Assembly (NCBI RefSeq): GCF_016462545.1
Contig: NZ_JAEMTA010000020.1
Span: 28,079-92,078, forward strand
Reading direction: 5' to 3'
Source of the DNA: Mycolicibacterium sp.
GTDB taxonomy: Bacteria > Actinomycetota > Actinomycetes > Mycobacteriales > Mycobacteriaceae
Length of the DNA: 64,000 nt
Shown here: positions 31,434 to 38,892 of the stretch, piece by piece
Position numbering within the stretch: position 1 is the first letter of the stretch
Layout: every line of letters starts with the position of its first letter
Translations under genes and position numbers: made by a program
The notes under the pieces: generated by a model
Databases searched by the model: none
The model's input: only the letters and a program-made list of their open reading frames with translations
What the model was told of the DNA's origin: nothing

Positions 31434-32702
31434 TCAGTACGCGTCCGGATTCTGCTGAACTGCGAGCGGAACGGGATGCTGGTAGAGCCGTGACGCGTTC
31501 TCCCACGTCACCTTCCGCACGATGTCGTCGGGCAGCCCGTTGATTTGCTCTCCGATGATGCGCTGGGTGTGTGGCCATGTCGAGTCGCAGTGCGGATAAT
31601 CGGATTCGAGCAGGATGTTGTCAGCTCCGATCCGCTCGTACTGGACGAATGACGATTGATCCTCCACCGCGCAGAACCAGAAATTCCGCGTGAACACCTC
31701 CGCGGGGGTCAGGGTCTCCCCCAACTCCCGCCACGTGCCGTACATGTCATGGTAGCTGAGCATGTGGTCGAGTCGATCGAGAAGTCCTGCTACCCAACCG
31801 ATTCCACCCTCGGACATGCAGATCTTCAGATCCGGGTGCCTGGTGCATACACCGGAGTACAGCCAGTCCACCGCGGCGGAGATCGCGTAGGCGAAGAACA
31901 GCACGCCCTGCACGTCGGGAGGTGCGTCGGCGGTGGTCGACGGCGACGTGCCCGAGGACCCGATGTGGAGATTCACCACCGTCCCGGTCTCGGCGCACGC
32001 GGCCATCAGCGGTTCCCAGTAGCCGGAATGGATGGTCGGCAGGCCCAACATCGCCGGGTTCTCACTGAACGTCACCGCGTGGAAGCCACGGTCGGCGTTC
32101 TCGTGGATCATCGTCGCGGCGACGTCCGGATCGAGCAGCCACGGCAGTTGGCACGGAATGATCCTTTCTGGATAGGCGCCGGCCCAGGCCTCGATGTGCC
32201 AGTCGTTCCACGCCCGTACCGACGCCATCGCGAGGTCGCGGTCGCTGGTCACCTGCTGAAGTCGCTGACCGGCGAAGCCCGGCAGGAACGAGGGGAAGTT
32301 CAGCGACGCATACACTCCGTTGAGGTCCATGTCCTTCACTCGCGCATGGATGTCCCACGCGCCGCGCCGCATCTCGTCGAATCGCGTCGGCTCGAAGCCG
32401 TACTCGGACACCGGCCTGCCCACCACCGCATTGAAGCCCACGTTGGGCAGTGACTGACCGTCGTACATCCAGGTTTGGCCGCCCCCTTCGGTGTCGACCA
32501 CCCGCGGGGCGCGGTCGGCGAACCTCCGCGGTACCCGCCCCTCAAAGCTATCGGGCGGTTCCACGATGTGGTCGTCGACGGAGATCACCGTGTACTGCCG
32601 CGCGGCCCGTTCGGGCTCGGGCAGGAACGTGACCGTTCGGTCGGCCCCGGTCCCGGCGGTGGTGAAGCTGAGGTTCGCCGACATCTCGTCGATGGAAGCC
32701 AT
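31434..32702 (-). CDS. amidohydrolase_2-family metal-dependent hydrolase/decarboxylase
   Basis: The 422-residue protein of the amidohydrolase-related PF04909 type includes ACMSD and gamma-resorcylate decarboxylase. The metal site is seen in VISVDDHIVEPPDSF (D-x-H in place of H-x-H) and LHIGSSGTS, with LLESDYPHCDSTWPHT as the final Asp/His loop. The helix WVAGLLDRLDHML is also typical. Many mycobacterial relatives have unknown substrates. It stands between the class II aldolase and the thioesterase in a minus-strand operon with a CoA ligase, so it may act on a ring or side-chain acid in the same pathway. The start MASIDEMSANLSF is the ORF start; a later ATG (MSANLSF) is possible. Confidence 0.87.
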   Translation of the reverse strand: MASIDEMSANLSFTTAGTGADRTVTFLPEPERAARQYTVISVDDHIVEPPDSFEGRVPRRFADRAPRVVDTEGGGQTWMYDGQSLPNVGFNAVVGRPVSEYGFEPTRFDEMRRGAWDIHARVKDMDLNGVYASLNFPSFLPGFAGQRLQQVTSDRDLAMASVRAWNDWHIEAWAGAYPERIIPCQLPWLLDPDVAATMIHENADRGFHAVTFSENPAMLGLPTIHSGYWEPLMAACAETGTVVNLHIGSSGTSPSTTADAPPDVQGVLFFAYAISAAVDWLYSGVCTRHPDLKICMSEGGIGWVAGLLDRLDHMLSYHDMYGTWRELGETLTPAEVFTRNFWFCAVEDQSSFVQYERIGADNILLESDYPHCDSTWPHTQRIIGEQINGLPDDIVRKVTWENASRLYQHPVPLAVQQNPDAY

Positions 32703-32735
32703 GCGCTCGATCTCCCTCTCTCGTAGTCGATCACG

Positions 32736-33509
32736 TCACTCAAGGACGCTGCGGTCGGCCTTGATCGTCATTCGCGCCGCGCCTGCCCAGTACACGTCGG
32801 CCGCCCGTTCGATCAGCGACGCCCGCATCCCCACCATGTCGCCGCGGTTCATCCTGGACGGTGTCCGACCGGTGACCAGCACGTCGTAGGCCAGCCGGCA
32901 CACCCGCTCGATGGAGACCGCCCGGTACACCGCTTGCGCGAGGTTGCCGCCGGTCGCGATCACACCGTGATTCGCCAAGATCACCAGATTCGCCGCACCG
33001 ACTTGGCCGGCGAGCTCACTCGCCCGCCACGGCGCATCGATCTCGCCGTCGTACTCGGGCACCAGATACATGTCGTCCAGAAAGAGCGCACCGGTCTGGT
33101 GAACCAACTCCGGCAGCATGCCGAGGGCGGCGATCAAGCTCACGTAGTACGGGTGATTGTGGATCACCACCCGGGCGTCGGGTCGCTGCCGGTGCAGTTC
33201 GGTGTGCAGGTGGATGGCAGGCGTCACGTCCCAGCGTCCGCTGACCACCCGTGCGTTCTCGTCCACGACGCAGATGTCCGAGGCGGTGAGCTCCTGCCAC
33301 CACAGGCCCCAGGGATTGACGAACATGTCGGAGCGATCGTCGAGCTGCCAGGTGATGTGGCCGGCCATGTTCTCGGCGAACCCGACGTCGGCGAGATGAC
33401 GGAACGCCACGGCCATCTTCTGCTCGTCGGTGAGGTCCACCCCGATGGGGGGCACCTTCGACGGCGCCCAGACCCCCAAGCCGCCCTGCCTAACCTGTTT
33501 TGTGGTCAT
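32736..33509 (-). CDS. class II aldolase/adducin-family protein
   Basis: The 257-residue protein has the zinc-dependent class II aldolase fold. The metal ligands are visible as HLHTELH, IHNHPYY and LANHGVI, and the catalytic Glu/Asp region is near AENMAGHITWQLDD (with N and G of the phosphate loop). Known members cleave phosphorylated sugars such as fuculose phosphate, but mycobacterial copies in catabolic clusters often act on other hydroxy-carbonyl compounds. Its ATG overlaps the end of the acyl-CoA ligase (ATGA), so the two are coupled. The gap to the amidohydrolase is 33 bases, so all three share one transcript. Confidence 0.88.
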   Translation of the reverse strand: MTTKQVRQGGLGVWAPSKVPPIGVDLTDEQKMAVAFRHLADVGFAENMAGHITWQLDDRSDMFVNPWGLWWQELTASDICVVDENARVVSGRWDVTPAIHLHTELHRQRPDARVVIHNHPYYVSLIAALGMLPELVHQTGALFLDDMYLVPEYDGEIDAPWRASELAGQVGAANLVILANHGVIATGGNLAQAVYRAVSIERVCRLAYDVLVTGRTPSRMNRGDMVGMRASLIERAADVYWAGAARMTIKADRSVLE

Positions 33510-35107
33510 GGCTCCAGTGTCGATCGGATGTCCTCGCGAAGTTGGCCTTTGGCGATCTTGCCGCCCGAGGAACGTGGCAGTTCGTCGAGGATCTCGAGTC
33601 GTTCCGGGAGCAACTCCTTGGAGACGCCCATGCCCAGCAGGTGCTCGATGAGCGCAGGCAGGTCGATGACGCCGTCACGCTTCAACTCGACGAACGCGCA
33701 GACCCTTTCGCCGAAGACGGGGTCCGGCATCGCCACCGCCGCGGCCACTGCCACGGCGGGATGGGTCGCGACGACTTCCTCCACCGCGACGGCGCTGATG
33801 TTCTTTCCGCCGCGCAGGATGAAGTCCGACGTCCGCCCGGTCAGGCTGAGATAGCCGTCGGCGTCGAGTTCGCAGATGTCACCCATCCGCATCCCGCCAT
33901 CCTGTGTGAACAACTGGTCGTGGTCGGTGCCGTCGAGATAGCCGAGACTGGTTGCCGGACCACGGCAGACAGGTTGTCCTCGACCCGATTCCGTGACGTC
34001 GAGATCGCCGTCGAACAGTCGGACCTGCATCTCCGGCACGATTCGCCCAGCAGTGCGAAGTCGGCGGTGCAAGGTGTCCGCCACGGTGGTAGCGCTCAAC
34101 ATGCCGGTTTCGTTCGATCCGTAGAACTGCAAGATCTTCACCCCCGTCAGCTCTTCGAACTGCGCGGCCTGTGTATAGGGCAGCGGCTCACCGCCGGTGA
34201 ACACGATGCGCAGGCTGCTGAGATCGCGGGCGCGGGCGGCGGGGCTTGCCAGGATCATGGCCAATTGAGTACTGACGCAACATAGTACGGTCGCCCGGTG
34301 CCGCTCGATCGCGGCACAGGTGGAGGCGGGATCGAAGCGCTCGATCCTGACCGTCGTCGCGCCCAGATGGTTGGGCGTGGTGTGCGAGGTCCAGATTCCG
34401 AAGCCGAATGGCGTGGGAATGACGGGCAAGAAGACGTCGTCGGCGGTGAGTTCACCATTGGCGACGGCTTTCTGGTGGAAGTAGTACCAGCGATTCTGGG
34501 TGTGCACCACACACTTTGGCAGGCCGGTCGTGCCCGACGTGGAGTTGATGAGGAACACGTCGTCGGGTCGGAGGGGCGATAGTCGCGCATCGGCACCCGG
34601 TCTGTCGACTGGGTCGACGACGACCTCGCCGGAACTCTGGTCGAGAAGGACGGAACGAAGTGTCGGGTCGGCGTCGGCGGCCGCCCGTGCTGCCGCCTCG
34701 TGTCGCCCGGCATCGCTGACGAGCAGCGACGGTTTCGCCGTGCGCAAGATATGGGTCACTTCGCGAACACCGGCGCGCGCCCCGAGTCCCACCGCGACCG
34801 CGCCGCAGCGTTCGATCGCCATCAGTAGTACGTGGATCTCCGAGCTGTCCCGGTGCCACATCGCCACCCCGTCACCGGCCGACACGCCCAAGTCGCGGAG
34901 TTGGCAGGCGAGGTTCGTGGCGGCGTGGTCGAACTCCGACCATGTCAAGGTGCGGCTGGACGAGTCGAGAAGGAAGTCCACGAACGCCGATTTGTCCGGC
35001 GCGGACAGGGAGTTGTGTCGAACGCGCTCCGAGAGCGTGGTGTCCGACCACCACCCGGCGGATCGATACTGCGCGGCCTCCTCGCTGGTGACGGCGATGG
35101 TGACCAT
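33506..35107 (-). CDS. AMP-binding acyl/aryl-CoA synthetase
   Basis: The 533-residue adenylate-forming ligase activates a carboxylic acid with ATP and then forms a CoA thioester. Motifs in order: phosphate loop LINSTSGTTGLPKCVVHT (about 190), acyl pocket region IVFTGGEPLPYTQA, YGSNETGMLS, the hinge and linker RTSDFILRGGKNISAVAVEE, and the catalytic Lys in PRSSGGKIAKGQL. It resembles cyclohexanecarboxylate/benzoate-type ligases more than fatty-acid FadD proteins. It is first in the operon ligase-aldolase-amidohydrolase-thioesterase and is divergent from the phytochrome module. The 270-base gap beyond it is non-coding and should contain its promoter. Confidence 0.9.
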   Translation of the reverse strand: MVTIAVTSEEAAQYRSAGWWSDTTLSERVRHNSLSAPDKSAFVDFLLDSSSRTLTWSEFDHAATNLACQLRDLGVSAGDGVAMWHRDSSEIHVLLMAIERCGAVAVGLGARAGVREVTHILRTAKPSLLVSDAGRHEAAARAAADADPTLRSVLLDQSSGEVVVDPVDRPGADARLSPLRPDDVFLINSTSGTTGLPKCVVHTQNRWYYFHQKAVANGELTADDVFLPVIPTPFGFGIWTSHTTPNHLGATTVRIERFDPASTCAAIERHRATVLCCVSTQLAMILASPAARARDLSSLRIVFTGGEPLPYTQAAQFEELTGVKILQFYGSNETGMLSATTVADTLHRRLRTAGRIVPEMQVRLFDGDLDVTESGRGQPVCRGPATSLGYLDGTDHDQLFTQDGGMRMGDICELDADGYLSLTGRTSDFILRGGKNISAVAVEEVVATHPAVAVAAAVAMPDPVFGERVCAFVELKRDGVIDLPALIEHLLGMGVSKELLPERLEILDELPRSSGGKIAKGQLREDIRSTLEP

Positions 35108-35377
35108 GACGAGATCATAGGAATAGCGGGGGCACCGTCACTGGGAATCGGGCGAGTGCGGGGATTCGATTAGGGCAGGCGGGCTCTGGCAGGAGTCGAT
35201 GGTGTCGTAATCGCAGTGGACCACGTGCACGGATGTGAGGGACCAAAGTCCTTAGGCACGATGCATTCTCAGCTTTCCACGTGCCAACTGCCATCGCAGT
35301 GGACAATCGTGCCCACGGGGCCGGATGCGAGACGTTCGAAACGCAGCGAAGGCGGGACATTGGCCGGTACGTGGACG

Positions 35378-35995
35378 ATGCGTGAAAGTGCGGCGCCGCT
35401 TGCCGCCCTTCGTCGTGCGACCGCCGCGGATCACGAATCGGTCGATCAGCTGATTCATCCGCATCGGCTCGTCGACATCGGTTACTACGCTGCCGTCGTC
35501 CGCGGGCTGATCGAGGCCGCCGAGCGCGTCGAGGTGACGTTGCCACTGATCCCGAGCGAGCTGCATGCCGAGGGGCTTTCCCCGTCAGAGGTCTCCAAGC
35601 GGTTGGCGCTCGACGACGAGTCGACGTTCTTGGACGGGCTCGCTGGAGCCTGGTCGCTTCGACGACCGTCTGGCCTGCAGGAACCACTGCTCGGATCGGG
35701 TCCGCACCCGCGCGCCACGATGCTGGGACTCCTCTACGTCTACGTCGGATCCGGACTGGGCGGTCTGCGCCTGTTGAGGGTTGCCCGAACCGCGCCCTGG
35801 TGGCAGCGCGAACGCGTGCACCTGCTGCTCCGGCCGTACGGCGCCCACCTCGACGATCGTTGGCGAGCGGTGCTGACCGCCCTCGCGCGACTGGACTCCG
35901 ACGAGACGAACGCTGCTGCGACGGCCGCACGTGTCTGCTTCGACCTGCACCGTCGGTCTCTCGTCGACCACCTTTCGGTCGGACGCGGCGGATGA
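35378..35995 (+). CDS. bphO: heme oxygenase of the bacteriophytochrome-associated (BphO) type
   Basis: The 205-residue enzyme opens heme to biliverdin IX-alpha, the chromophore of bacteriophytochromes. The N-terminal ALRRATAADHESVDQLIHPHRL carries the proximal heme-ligand His of the family, and the distal helix appears as LYVYVGSGLGGLRLLRVARTA with the Gly-rich G-x-x-x-G sequence. Its last four bases overlap the phytochrome start (ATGA), which is a strong functional link. The start ATG 35378 is chosen because homology begins there; no good Shine-Dalgarno was seen. The ORF track version from 35216 adds 54 residues without family character. Confidence 0.86.
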   Translation: MRESAAPLAALRRATAADHESVDQLIHPHRLVDIGYYAAVVRGLIEAAERVEVTLPLIPSELHAEGLSPSEVSKRLALDDESTFLDGLAGAWSLRRPSGLQEPLLGSGPHPRATMLGLLYVYVGSGLGGLRLLRVARTAPWWQRERVHLLLRPYGAHLDDRWRAVLTALARLDSDETNAAATAARVCFDLHRRSLVDHLSVGRGG

Positions 35996-38805
35996 GCGAG
36001 GGCTCCGAGGCACTGTGGAAGGTAGTCGGCCACGAGGGCTGCGAATCCGAGCCGATCAGCAAGCCCGACGCCATTCAGGCGCGCGGATGGCTGCTCGCCG
36101 TCGACCTCGCGACGCGGCGCGTCTCCCACGTGTCGTCGAACCTGGACGCTCCGATCGGCGCCGTCCTCGATACTCCCACCGTCTTGGGATCGACGCTCGA
36201 AGACGTCGCGTGTGGACTGCAACTCCCCGACGCTGCAATGCGATTCGAGTCCATCGCGGGTTGGCAGACCGAGATGCCCTGGCTGATCTCCGATCCCTTG
36301 ATGGTCACTGCCCACTCGACGAGTGACCACTACGTCCTCGAACTCGAGCGCGACATTCCCTCCGTCGCTTCGGATCCGACCGCGATGATAGCCACGCTGC
36401 TGGAGGCGCCGAGTTGGCAGGCGTTCTCCGAGCAGACGGTGAAGGCCCTGGGACAGATGTTCGGCTACGCACGCACCATGGCCTACACGTTTCATCCCGA
36501 CCATCACGGTGAGGTGACCGCCGAGTACCTCAACCAGCCCGACTTGGAACCGTTCCTGGGGCTGCACTATCCCGCCTCGGACATCCCGCGCCAAGCCCGT
36601 CGGCTGTACGTCATGCAATTGGTGCGGGTCATCGATGACGTCGATGACCCGACCGTTCATCTTCTCGGATCGGCTCCCGATGGCGAGCCCGCGCCGGCAC
36701 TCGATCTCAGCTTCGCGAACCGGCGCGCTGTCTCACCGGTACACCTGGAGTACACGCGCAACATGGGGGTCGCAGCCACCGCAACTGTGTCCATCGTCCA
36801 GTTGGAACGGCTGACGGGCATGTTCGTCATGCACCACACCGAGCCCCGATCACTCAGCCTGAGTGATCGTCTGGCGCTCGCCACCGTCAGCCGCATTGCC
36901 TCGTTCGTCGCAGCGAAGATGGACGAGAAGTCCTTCGGAACCCGTCGTGCTCGGGTGAGCACGCTCGCCGAAGAACTCCGCCGAAACCTAACCGCCGGTG
37001 ACGATTTCATCCGGTGCATCGAGGCGATGGGTGATGAAGTCCTGACGGCAGTGGAGGCCGACGGAGTGGTGGCCCGGCTGGATCGCGAGGTGTTCCGCCT
37101 CGGCGCCGTACCGGAACAGGACATGATCGATCAGCGAGTGCGCGAGTTGAGCTCGACTGGAGCCGAACTCGTACAGACGACCGACTGTCTCGCAGCAGAC
37201 ATGCCCGAACTCGCCGACCCCGACATCTGCGCGGGTGCGATCGTGGCCAGGCTGCCCGGCACACCTGAGGGGTACGTGGCATGGTTCCGTCGACCGTTCC
37301 TCGACTCCGTCCGATGGGGCGGGGAGTTGACCGCACTGGTCCGCAAAGACGAGTTCGGACGGCTGCACCCACGTGGCTCGTTCGATGAGTTCGTCGAGAA
37401 CGTCACCGACCGTAGCCGCCAGTGGTCCGATCACGATCGGATGGTCGCCGAAAGTCTCTATCGCGCTCTGCAATTCGGCCTAACCGAGTGGGCGTATCGG
37501 CAGCTCGCGGTCCTAGCGACCATCGATCCGCTCACGGGCCTCGGCAACCGTCGCTCGCTCTCACAGGCGATCGACGGCGCGATGCCAACCCGCTCGGCGT
37601 TGCGCCGCCCGGCGCTGCTGTACCTCGACCTCGATCGCTTCAAGCAGATCAACGACGCGTTCGGGCACCACATGGGAGACCTGGTCCTTCAGGCAACCGC
37701 TGACCGGCTCGAGCGGGAGGCGTTCCATCTGGTCGGTCGGTTCGGCACCGTCTACCGCCTCGGCGGCGACGAGTTCGTCGTGCTCCTCCGCGACGCCACG
37801 CCCGAAATGGTCTCCGGTCTCGCCGACGGAATCCTCGCAGCGTTCCGGGATCCGGTGATCGTCGACGGCGCGAGCAACGTGGTCAACGTCAGCATCGGAG
37901 CCGTCGCCGATGCCGATTACGTCGACTCCGACGAAATGCTTCGGCGCGGAGACCTGGCCATGTACTCGGCCAAGCGGGCCGGAGGGTCCCGTGTCACGTT
38001 CTATCAGGACGACTTCTCACACGCGGCGGTGCGTCGGTCGACGCTCGAACAGCAGCTTTACCAGGCGATCGAACACGATGAGCTGATTCCGGTGTTCCAA
38101 CCCATCGTCTCGCTACGAACCGGTCAGATCGTGGGTGCGGAGGCACTGGCGCGCTGGCGCCAGCCCGTCGGGGGCGTCCTTCTGCCTGCCGAGTTCATCC
38201 TGCTCGCCGAGGAGACCGGGCAGATCCGCCAGGTCGATCGACGGGTCACCGAGCGCGCCGTGGTGGAGTGCCGCGGGTTGTTGCGCGAACCTTCGCGGGA
38301 ATTCCACCTGGCGATCAACGCGAGCGCCAAGACGGTGGATGCGGAGTACGTCGACTACCTCGCTGAGCTGATCGCCCGCTACGGCCTCCTCCCCGAACGG
38401 TTGACCATCGAGCTGACGGAGTCTGCAATGGTTCACGAATCGGGCCGCCTTCGTCAGACGCTGAGCGACATCCGGTCGCTCGGAGTGAAGGTGGCCATCG
38501 ATGATTTCGGGACGGGTTACTCCTCGCTCGCCCACCTGCAGAACCTGCCGGTCGACATGGTCAAGCTGGATCGCACGTTCGTCGAGCGGCTGCGCGGCGA
38601 CGAGGGCGCCAACGTAGTCGCCCGGTGGGCGATCCAACTGGTATCGGAACTCGGACTGCAGATGATCGCAGAGGGTGTCGAGACCCGCGATGAGGAGGAG
38701 GCCCTGCGATCGCTCGGTTACGACTGGGTGCAGGGCAACCGATACGGCACTCCGAAACTGGCGCCACCCCGCACCAGTGACCTCCCGAGCGACAAGTCGC
38801 CGTAG
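35992..38805 (+). CDS. bphP: bacteriophytochrome with GGDEF and EAL domains (light-responsive c-di-GMP enzyme)
   Basis: The 937-residue photoreceptor has domains in the order PAS-GAF-PHY-GGDEF-EAL. The biliverdin-binding Cys is at 17 (GCESEPI), followed by the PAS segment DAIQARGWLLAVD. GAF has LHYPASDIPRQARRLYV (DIP at about 196) and HLEYTRNMGVAATATVSIV; PHY has the tongue RWGGE and PRGSF (about 459). GGDEF is intact at about 591 (RLGGDEFVVLL), but the inhibitory RxxD site before it is missing. EAL is at about 717 (GAEALARW), with IELTES, AIDDFGTGYSS, KLDRTF and IAEGVET all kept. Synthesis and breakdown of c-di-GMP are both possible in principle. The chromophore would come from the coupled heme oxygenase. 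The ORF start at 35800 is a false extension. Confidence 0.95.
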   Translation: MSEGSEALWKVVGHEGCESEPISKPDAIQARGWLLAVDLATRRVSHVSSNLDAPIGAVLDTPTVLGSTLEDVACGLQLPDAAMRFESIAGWQTEMPWLISDPLMVTAHSTSDHYVLELERDIPSVASDPTAMIATLLEAPSWQAFSEQTVKALGQMFGYARTMAYTFHPDHHGEVTAEYLNQPDLEPFLGLHYPASDIPRQARRLYVMQLVRVIDDVDDPTVHLLGSAPDGEPAPALDLSFANRRAVSPVHLEYTRNMGVAATATVSIVQLERLTGMFVMHHTEPRSLSLSDRLALATVSRIASFVAAKMDEKSFGTRRARVSTLAEELRRNLTAGDDFIRCIEAMGDEVLTAVEADGVVARLDREVFRLGAVPEQDMIDQRVRELSSTGAELVQTTDCLAADMPELADPDICAGAIVARLPGTPEGYVAWFRRPFLDSVRWGGELTALVRKDEFGRLHPRGSFDEFVENVTDRSRQWSDHDRMVAESLYRALQFGLTEWAYRQLAVLATIDPLTGLGNRRSLSQAIDGAMPTRSALRRPALLYLDLDRFKQINDAFGHHMGDLVLQATADRLEREAFHLVGRFGTVYRLGGDEFVVLLRDATPEMVSGLADGILAAFRDPVIVDGASNVVNVSIGAVADADYVDSDEMLRRGDLAMYSAKRAGGSRVTFYQDDFSHAAVRRSTLEQQLYQAIEHDELIPVFQPIVSLRTGQIVGAEALARWRQPVGGVLLPAEFILLAEETGQIRQVDRRVTERAVVECRGLLREPSREFHLAINASAKTVDAEYVDYLAELIARYGLLPERLTIELTESAMVHESGRLRQTLSDIRSLGVKVAIDDFGTGYSSLAHLQNLPVDMVKLDRTFVERLRGDEGANVVARWAIQLVSELGLQMIAEGVETRDEEEALRSLGYDWVQGNRYGTPKLAPPRTSDLPSDKSP

Positions 38806-38821
38806 GCGGGGAACACACGCG

Positions 38822-38892
38822 AGCGGATGACGGGATTCGAACCCGTGTAAACGGCTTTGCAGGCCGGTGCCTAGCCACTCAGCCACACCCGC
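38822..38892 (-). tRNA. tRNA-Cys(GCA)
   Basis: On the minus strand a 71-base cloverleaf runs from GCGGGTG to CATCCGC with discriminator T. The acceptor stem has 7 pairs including one G-U. The anticodon loop is CTGCAAA (anticodon GCA). The T arm is ACGGG TTCGAAT CCCGT. U73 and GCA are the Cys identity elements. The CCA end is not encoded. Confidence 0.95.

Follow-up and report, generated by a model that had tools for sequence, protein, structure and literature searches.

The tandem genes bphO and bphP, found on a 64,000-nucleotide stretch of mycobacterial DNA (the window), very probably constitute a bicistronic light-sensing operon in which BphO would supply biliverdin to BphP, a bacteriophytochrome that would in turn set c-di-GMP levels according to light. 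From a comparison of loci, the pair seems to be inherited and transferred between species as one unit. The coordinates of its features are collected in Table 1.

Table 1. Features of the bphO-bphP locus, numbered from the first nucleotide of the window
Feature	Position	Strand	Remarks
Conserved element GCAGTGGACAATCGTGCCCA	35296..35315	+	Putative promoter -10 region GACAAT; left edge of transferable block (~35294)
bphO	35378..35995	+	205 aa; diverged canonical heme oxygenase; alternative start TTG 35360
ATGA stop/start overlap, bphO/bphP	35992..35995	+	Possible in 8/8 species; in CR10 via first ATG
bphP	35992..38805	+	937 aa; bacteriophytochrome with GGDEF-EAL output, PadC-EAL type
PAS_2 domain	36040..36348	+	Pfam; predicted biliverdin-binding Cys17 at domain start
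GAF chromophore pocket	36418..36912	+	Y165, DIP 197-199, R212, R245, H251, Y254, H281/H282
PHY domain with tongue	36964..37470	+	RWGG 441-444, PRGSF 460-464
GGDEF domain	37516..37989	+	RLGGDEF motif intact; RxxD I-site absent
EAL domain	38050..38754	+	EAL, N776, ELTE, DDFGTG, K858, AEGVE, Q914
tRNA-Cys	38821..38892	-	3' end 16 bp from bphP stop; homology to cassette-less relatives starts there

The bphO-bphP pair is genuine and has been maintained. A search for orthologues, as an earlier note on this sequence had proposed, found the pair in eight Mycolicibacterium species (that of the window, Mycolicibacterium hodleri, CR10, Root135, M. chubuense, M. chlorophenolicum, G224 and G054), with both reading frames conserved at 59–91% identity. 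The closest relative is M. hodleri (91%), and the note was correct in taking the host for a mycobacterium. The four-base overlap that it described was also borne out, with both reading frames placed as in Table 1. The dN/dS ratio (NG86) is 0.16–0.21 for bphP as a whole and 0.32–0.57 for bphO, and by domain it is 0.07–0.57 in every domain of the species pairs tested, indicating purifying selection; in two of three pairs the strongest constraint falls on GAF. Because the reading frames and the ATGA overlap are kept in eight species with such ratios, the pair is not a product of chance, and a pseudogene is ruled out by the absence of stops together with purifying selection.

The element GCAGTGGACAATCGTGCCCA is a probable -10 region of the operon's promoter. 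Its hexamer, GACAAT in the window, reads GATAAT in G224 and GAGAAT in G054, GTGGACAATC is conserved in six of the eight species at 58–79 bp 5' of bphO, and the element occurs as a single exact copy in the genome; a scan for promoters and terminators gave no candidate for this operon. An in-frame TTG preceded by GAAGGCGG lies upstream of the bphO ATG at 35378, and because of this upstream GAAGG sequence the true start of bphO may be the TTG. In M. hodleri (L003 8800-8862) the bphP frame lacks its usual stop and reads antisense into tRNA-Cys, giving a C-terminus ending in MTGFEP. A divergent cluster at 31434-35107 on the minus strand of the window encodes an amidohydrolase, a class II aldolase-like protein and an acyl/aryl-CoA ligase; among the loci compared, it occupies the same site only in M. 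hodleri.

Since single-sequence searches do not recognise bphO, its name as a heme oxygenase needed separate proof. BphO alone has no match in Pfam, NCBIfam or the PDB, and against the heme oxygenase model PF01126 it stays below the curated cut-off and gives no match even at an E-value of 10; the G224 orthologue reaches only E 0.0016 and 18.7 bits. We do not claim membership of that model for BphO, and the case for its homology comes from profile and fold. A profile built from the eight orthologues weakly matches Neisseria HemO (E 0.0012) and also picks up distant heme oxygenases from a single family within the same order, which were all that searches of the order and class returned outside the genus; three of the four tested reach the PF01126 cut-off. 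An alignment of 17 rows (A3), comprising the orthologues, distant heme oxygenases of the same order and heme oxygenases beside other mycobacterial phytochromes, gave a profile that matches HemO (1j77) at 2e-18 and PigA (1sk7) at 5e-13. The structure model built from A3 has a mean pLDDT of 88.4; a model from the eight orthologues only was discarded (pLDDT 39.5). The top structural matches of the A3 model are heme oxygenases (1sk7, Z 16.8 over 182 residues, rmsd 2.8; 1j77, Z 16.3), Z scores of 16–17 exceed the tool's warning range for helical bundles, and Foldseek concurs with a probability of 1.00, though its E-values are about 0.003. The predicted model shows the all-helical heme oxygenase fold. 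Within A3 the proximal His19, G124 and G128 are invariant in the 17 relatives and S125 and G129 nearly so, and the distal motif YVYVGSGLGG (120-129) retains the pattern Y-V-x-x-G-S-x-x-G-G. From the A3 profile, the confident model, its structural matches, His19 and the distal glycine motif, we conclude that BphO is a diverged member of the canonical heme oxygenase family, and the identity given to it in the earlier note is thus upheld through profile, model and structure. Neisseria HemO and Pseudomonas PigA share with BphO the fold, the proximal histidine and a Gly-Ser-x-Leu-Gly distal motif, but only 16–20% identity, and the BphO locus shows no sign of an iron-uptake setting. The product of BphO would be biliverdin IX-alpha, and a dedicated biliverdin enzyme makes sense because the mycobacterial MhuD makes mycobilin, not biliverdin (PMC6018153).

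BphP has the order PAS-GAF-PHY-GGDEF-EAL, all five Pfam domains (PAS_2, GAF, PHY, GGDEF and EAL) scoring above cut-off, which confirms that this phytochrome ends in GGDEF-EAL. Cys17, DIP, RWGG and PRxSF, already noted from the sequence, proved invariant in the eight species (C17, D197-I198-P199, R441-W-G-G and P460-R-G-S-F464), while in the neighbouring PASDIP the serine is replaced by alanine in G224. The catalytic motifs GGDEF (591-595) and EAL (717-719) are intact in all eight orthologues. The GGDEF domain has no RxxD I-site, and therefore product inhibition is not expected there. In 63 other phytochromes 92 positions reach at least 90% conservation; BphP keeps 67 of these, including C17, Y165, DIP, Y206, R212, R245, H251, Y254, W442 and G444 of the tongue, and PRxSF. 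At positions that are 85–100% conserved in these 63 proteins the mycobacterial clade has residues of its own (C280M, W275T, L244R or L, D160A and W467F, among others), and it differs further at R166 (T or K) and P446 (L, V or S), where other phytochromes show little or no variation. The clade retains the known chromophore contacts, and the biliverdin pocket and both c-di-GMP domains look functional; because of the clade-wide changes, however, photochemistry may be altered or weak.

The kind of protein to which BphP belongs, a PadC-EAL with an adjacent heme oxygenase, is already known. PadC-EALs are defined by N-terminal Cys, DIP, PRxSF, GGDEF and EAL/ExL motifs and are sorted by linker length (PMC9587094). 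BphP has the N-terminal Cys (C17, invariant in the eight), DIP in GAF (197-199), PRxSF in the PHY tongue (460-464), and the GGDEF/GGEEF and EAL/ExL motifs at the positions given above. From the PHY tryptophan to DxLT there are 33 residues in all eight proteins and in RsBphG1, against 44 in IsPadC(+7); the linker is 11 residues shorter and is therefore of class -4, a class common in Actinobacteria (PMC9587094). By sequence, then, BphP fits the published family in all its motifs, but the mycobacterial proteins form a separate long-branch clade and the main text of PMC9587094 names no mycobacterial member. A tree of 71 photosensory modules places the mycobacterial eight in one clade (100/100) that groups with proteobacterial PadC-EALs, whereas the PP2C- and GGDEF-type phytochromes found in other mycobacteria fall elsewhere; given the long stem (2.19), this placement deserves only moderate confidence. 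Further mycobacterial phytochromes found in this analysis (PP2C type and PadC type) have the same photosensory domains, but their outputs differ and they belong to separate lineages.

Among characterised proteins the closest to BphP is BphG1 of Rhodobacter (Cereibacter) sphaeroides, the founding PadC-EAL, which has the same domain order, an equal linker length and 35.5% identity over 97% with BphP, and whose gene likewise follows directly upon a heme oxygenase gene. RsBphG1 is, however, plasmid-borne in an alphaproteobacterium, a 67-bp gap takes the place of the mycobacterial overlap, and its pocket has the canonical C, W and L, at which positions the mycobacterial clade shows M, T and R. In Pseudomonas aeruginosa the output of BphP is a histidine kinase. 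There too bphO lies upstream of bphP in one bicistronic transcript and supplies biliverdin (PMC6018153), but it serves this kinase phytochrome, whereas the mycobacterial output is GGDEF-EAL. A different mycobacterial PadC-EAL, in G032 (L153), has its own heme oxygenase gene upstream; its linker of 41 residues (+4 on the published scale) does not match any length that we found listed in PMC9587094.

In the operon that we propose, BphO would open heme to biliverdin IX-alpha, and BphP, translated from the overlapping start codon, would bind this biliverdin at Cys17, as its conserved residues suggest, and assemble as a dimer. Judging from the characterised relatives PadC and BphG1, red light would convert BphP from Pr to a Pfr-like state, the PHY tongue would refold, and the class -4 coiled-coil linker would draw the GGDEF domains together, so that more c-di-GMP is made in light, while the intact EAL domain could hydrolyse c-di-GMP. 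By this analogy light would raise rather than lower cyclase activity; two characterised class -4 PadCs, from Microbacterium and Agromyces, show responses of 2.2- to 13-fold when a close relative is counted with them (PMC9587094), and BphG1 is listed as light-activated (PMC8846402). To our knowledge few PadC-EALs have been characterised, and fewer still have had their phosphodiesterase activity measured.

It is possible, if rather doubtful, that BphP binds biliverdin and is mainly a light-regulated phosphodiesterase, with a regulatory GGDEF domain and EAL as the output, in which case light would lower c-di-GMP. The fully conserved EAL residues and the missing I-site agree with such an enzyme, one inactive domain is frequent in GGDEF-EAL proteins, and in PadC-EALs the EAL output may be the more important one, as suggested by the authors of PMC9587094; yet cyclase activity was found in all three PadC-EALs tested (PMC9587094), and in the eight species the GGDEF motif and the metal and substrate residues are invariant under purifying selection.

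The changes C280M, W275T, L244R and W467F, together with the stem branch of 2.19, could also mean that the clade has lost normal photochemistry and that BphP is a dark sensor of biliverdin, heme or redox state. We consider this unlikely, as Cys17, the ring-contacting set of His, Arg, Tyr and Asp, and the tongue motifs are all invariant, a dedicated bphO has been retained, and GAF is the domain under strongest constraint in most of the pairs. That BphO is chiefly an iron-scavenging enzyme, its coupling to bphP being incidental, is highly improbable: canonical heme oxygenases do release heme iron too, but bphO co-occurs strictly with bphP and is coupled to it by ATGA in eight species and at three or more chromosomal sites, and no heme-uptake genes were recognised among the scanned neighbours of bphO. 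A light-sensing operon with biliverdin made for BphP is the preferred reading.

The pair is an isolated homology block of about 3.45 kb found at three or more chromosomal sites, mostly adjoining tRNA genes: tRNA-Cys in three species and tRNA-Ala (with tRNA-Ile) in four, while in G224 no tRNA was found in the 20-kb segment around bphO-bphP. When 20 kb was compared between the window and CR10, the sole DNA homology extended over 35294-38786 at most, in two alignments, neither of which reaches beyond the upstream element, bphO and bphP. In the cassette-less relatives G004 and G009, homology to the window starts at 38815-38817, the 3' end of tRNA-Cys. In CR10 (L141 8035-8075, 11752-11828) the pair is bracketed by an intact tRNA-Ala on the upstream side of bphO and, starting 9 bp past bphP, a 41-bp direct copy of the 3' part of this tRNA (score 52, against a maximum of 27 in 3516 null comparisons). 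In Root135 a 33-bp copy of the tRNA-Cys 3' end overlaps the end of bphP, and a separate acyltransferase-like gene lies between this copy and the intact tRNA-Cys. Partial 3' copies were not found in the window, M. hodleri, M. chubuense, M. chlorophenolicum or G054, the cassette in the window has no flanking direct repeats, and neither cassette nor bphO homologue was found on plasmids. Past insertion at tRNA genes would be the simplest reading of these loci. The block holds only bphO and bphP, with no integrase gene, and we did not assign it to the tRNA-site integrative elements. In G009 (L212 12450-15369) about 2.8 kb separate the intact gene from another 41-bp copy of the tRNA-Cys 3' end, and a Gly-rich reading frame resembling PE_PGRS lies between them; because of this further copy the tRNA-Cys site looks like an insertion hotspot.

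A census of 297 sampled genomes from the genus found PHY domains in 78, about a quarter, in several unrelated lineages, and PF01126 heme oxygenases in 100. The bphO type described here was found in six genomes, none with a PF01126 match, and in all six only beside this bphP, which, with the ATGA coupling, supports the earlier proposal that chromophore supply and photoreceptor are made together. The 78 PHY-bearing genomes comprise 43 with a PF01126 heme oxygenase, six with this bphO type and 29 whose phytochrome genes are accompanied by no recognised heme oxygenase; PHY and PF01126 are associated (Fisher P 6e-6, not corrected for relatedness). The source genome encodes a second phytochrome (C109:220601-221080) of 755 aa with a canonical pocket and the organization PAS-GAF-PHY-PP2C, the commonest mycobacterial type, which possibly feeds a partner-switching sigma factor pathway. 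Because BphO is the only heme oxygenase found in this genome, which has no PF01126 match anywhere, it may charge the second phytochrome as well, and is probably its source of biliverdin. The same genome has 21 GGDEF and 9 EAL domains, and light would therefore be one input of many.

The earlier note mentioned neither this second phytochrome, the number of c-di-GMP domains and the spread of phytochromes through about a quarter of sampled mycobacterial species, nor the transferable nature of the block beside tRNA genes and the PadC-EAL family already described. No paper on a mycobacterial phytochrome was found in the open-access literature searched, and a paper on how M. kansasii responds to light mentions neither phytochromes nor photoreceptors. 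New here are the occurrence of bphO-bphP as an isolated block at several chromosomal sites, mostly by tRNA genes, the spread of phytochromes through the genus, and BphO as the only heme oxygenase found in this genome. With several phytochrome lineages in so many of the sampled species, red-light sensing in mycobacteria becomes directly testable, and a predicted self-sufficient unit of two genes leading from light to c-di-GMP would lend itself naturally as a tool to the study of c-di-GMP in soil mycobacteria. Much more tentatively, the pair could be a minimal "photoreceptor islet" of chromophore enzyme and sensor enzyme that, though it has no integrase, travels from one tRNA site to another in soil mycobacteria and brings a red-light input into an already large c-di-GMP network, with an unusual photocycle from its clade-specific pocket and a heme oxygenase that also charges the resident PP2C phytochrome. 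A third mycobacterial lineage (L144-L151), found in at least seven genomes, consists of PHY-GGDEF phytochromes that lack EAL, in two of these genomes with a weak PF01126 heme oxygenase adjoining. In G169 (C46:42449-42983, L152) a PHY domain is divided between two reading frames, and the phytochrome gene there has probably decayed.
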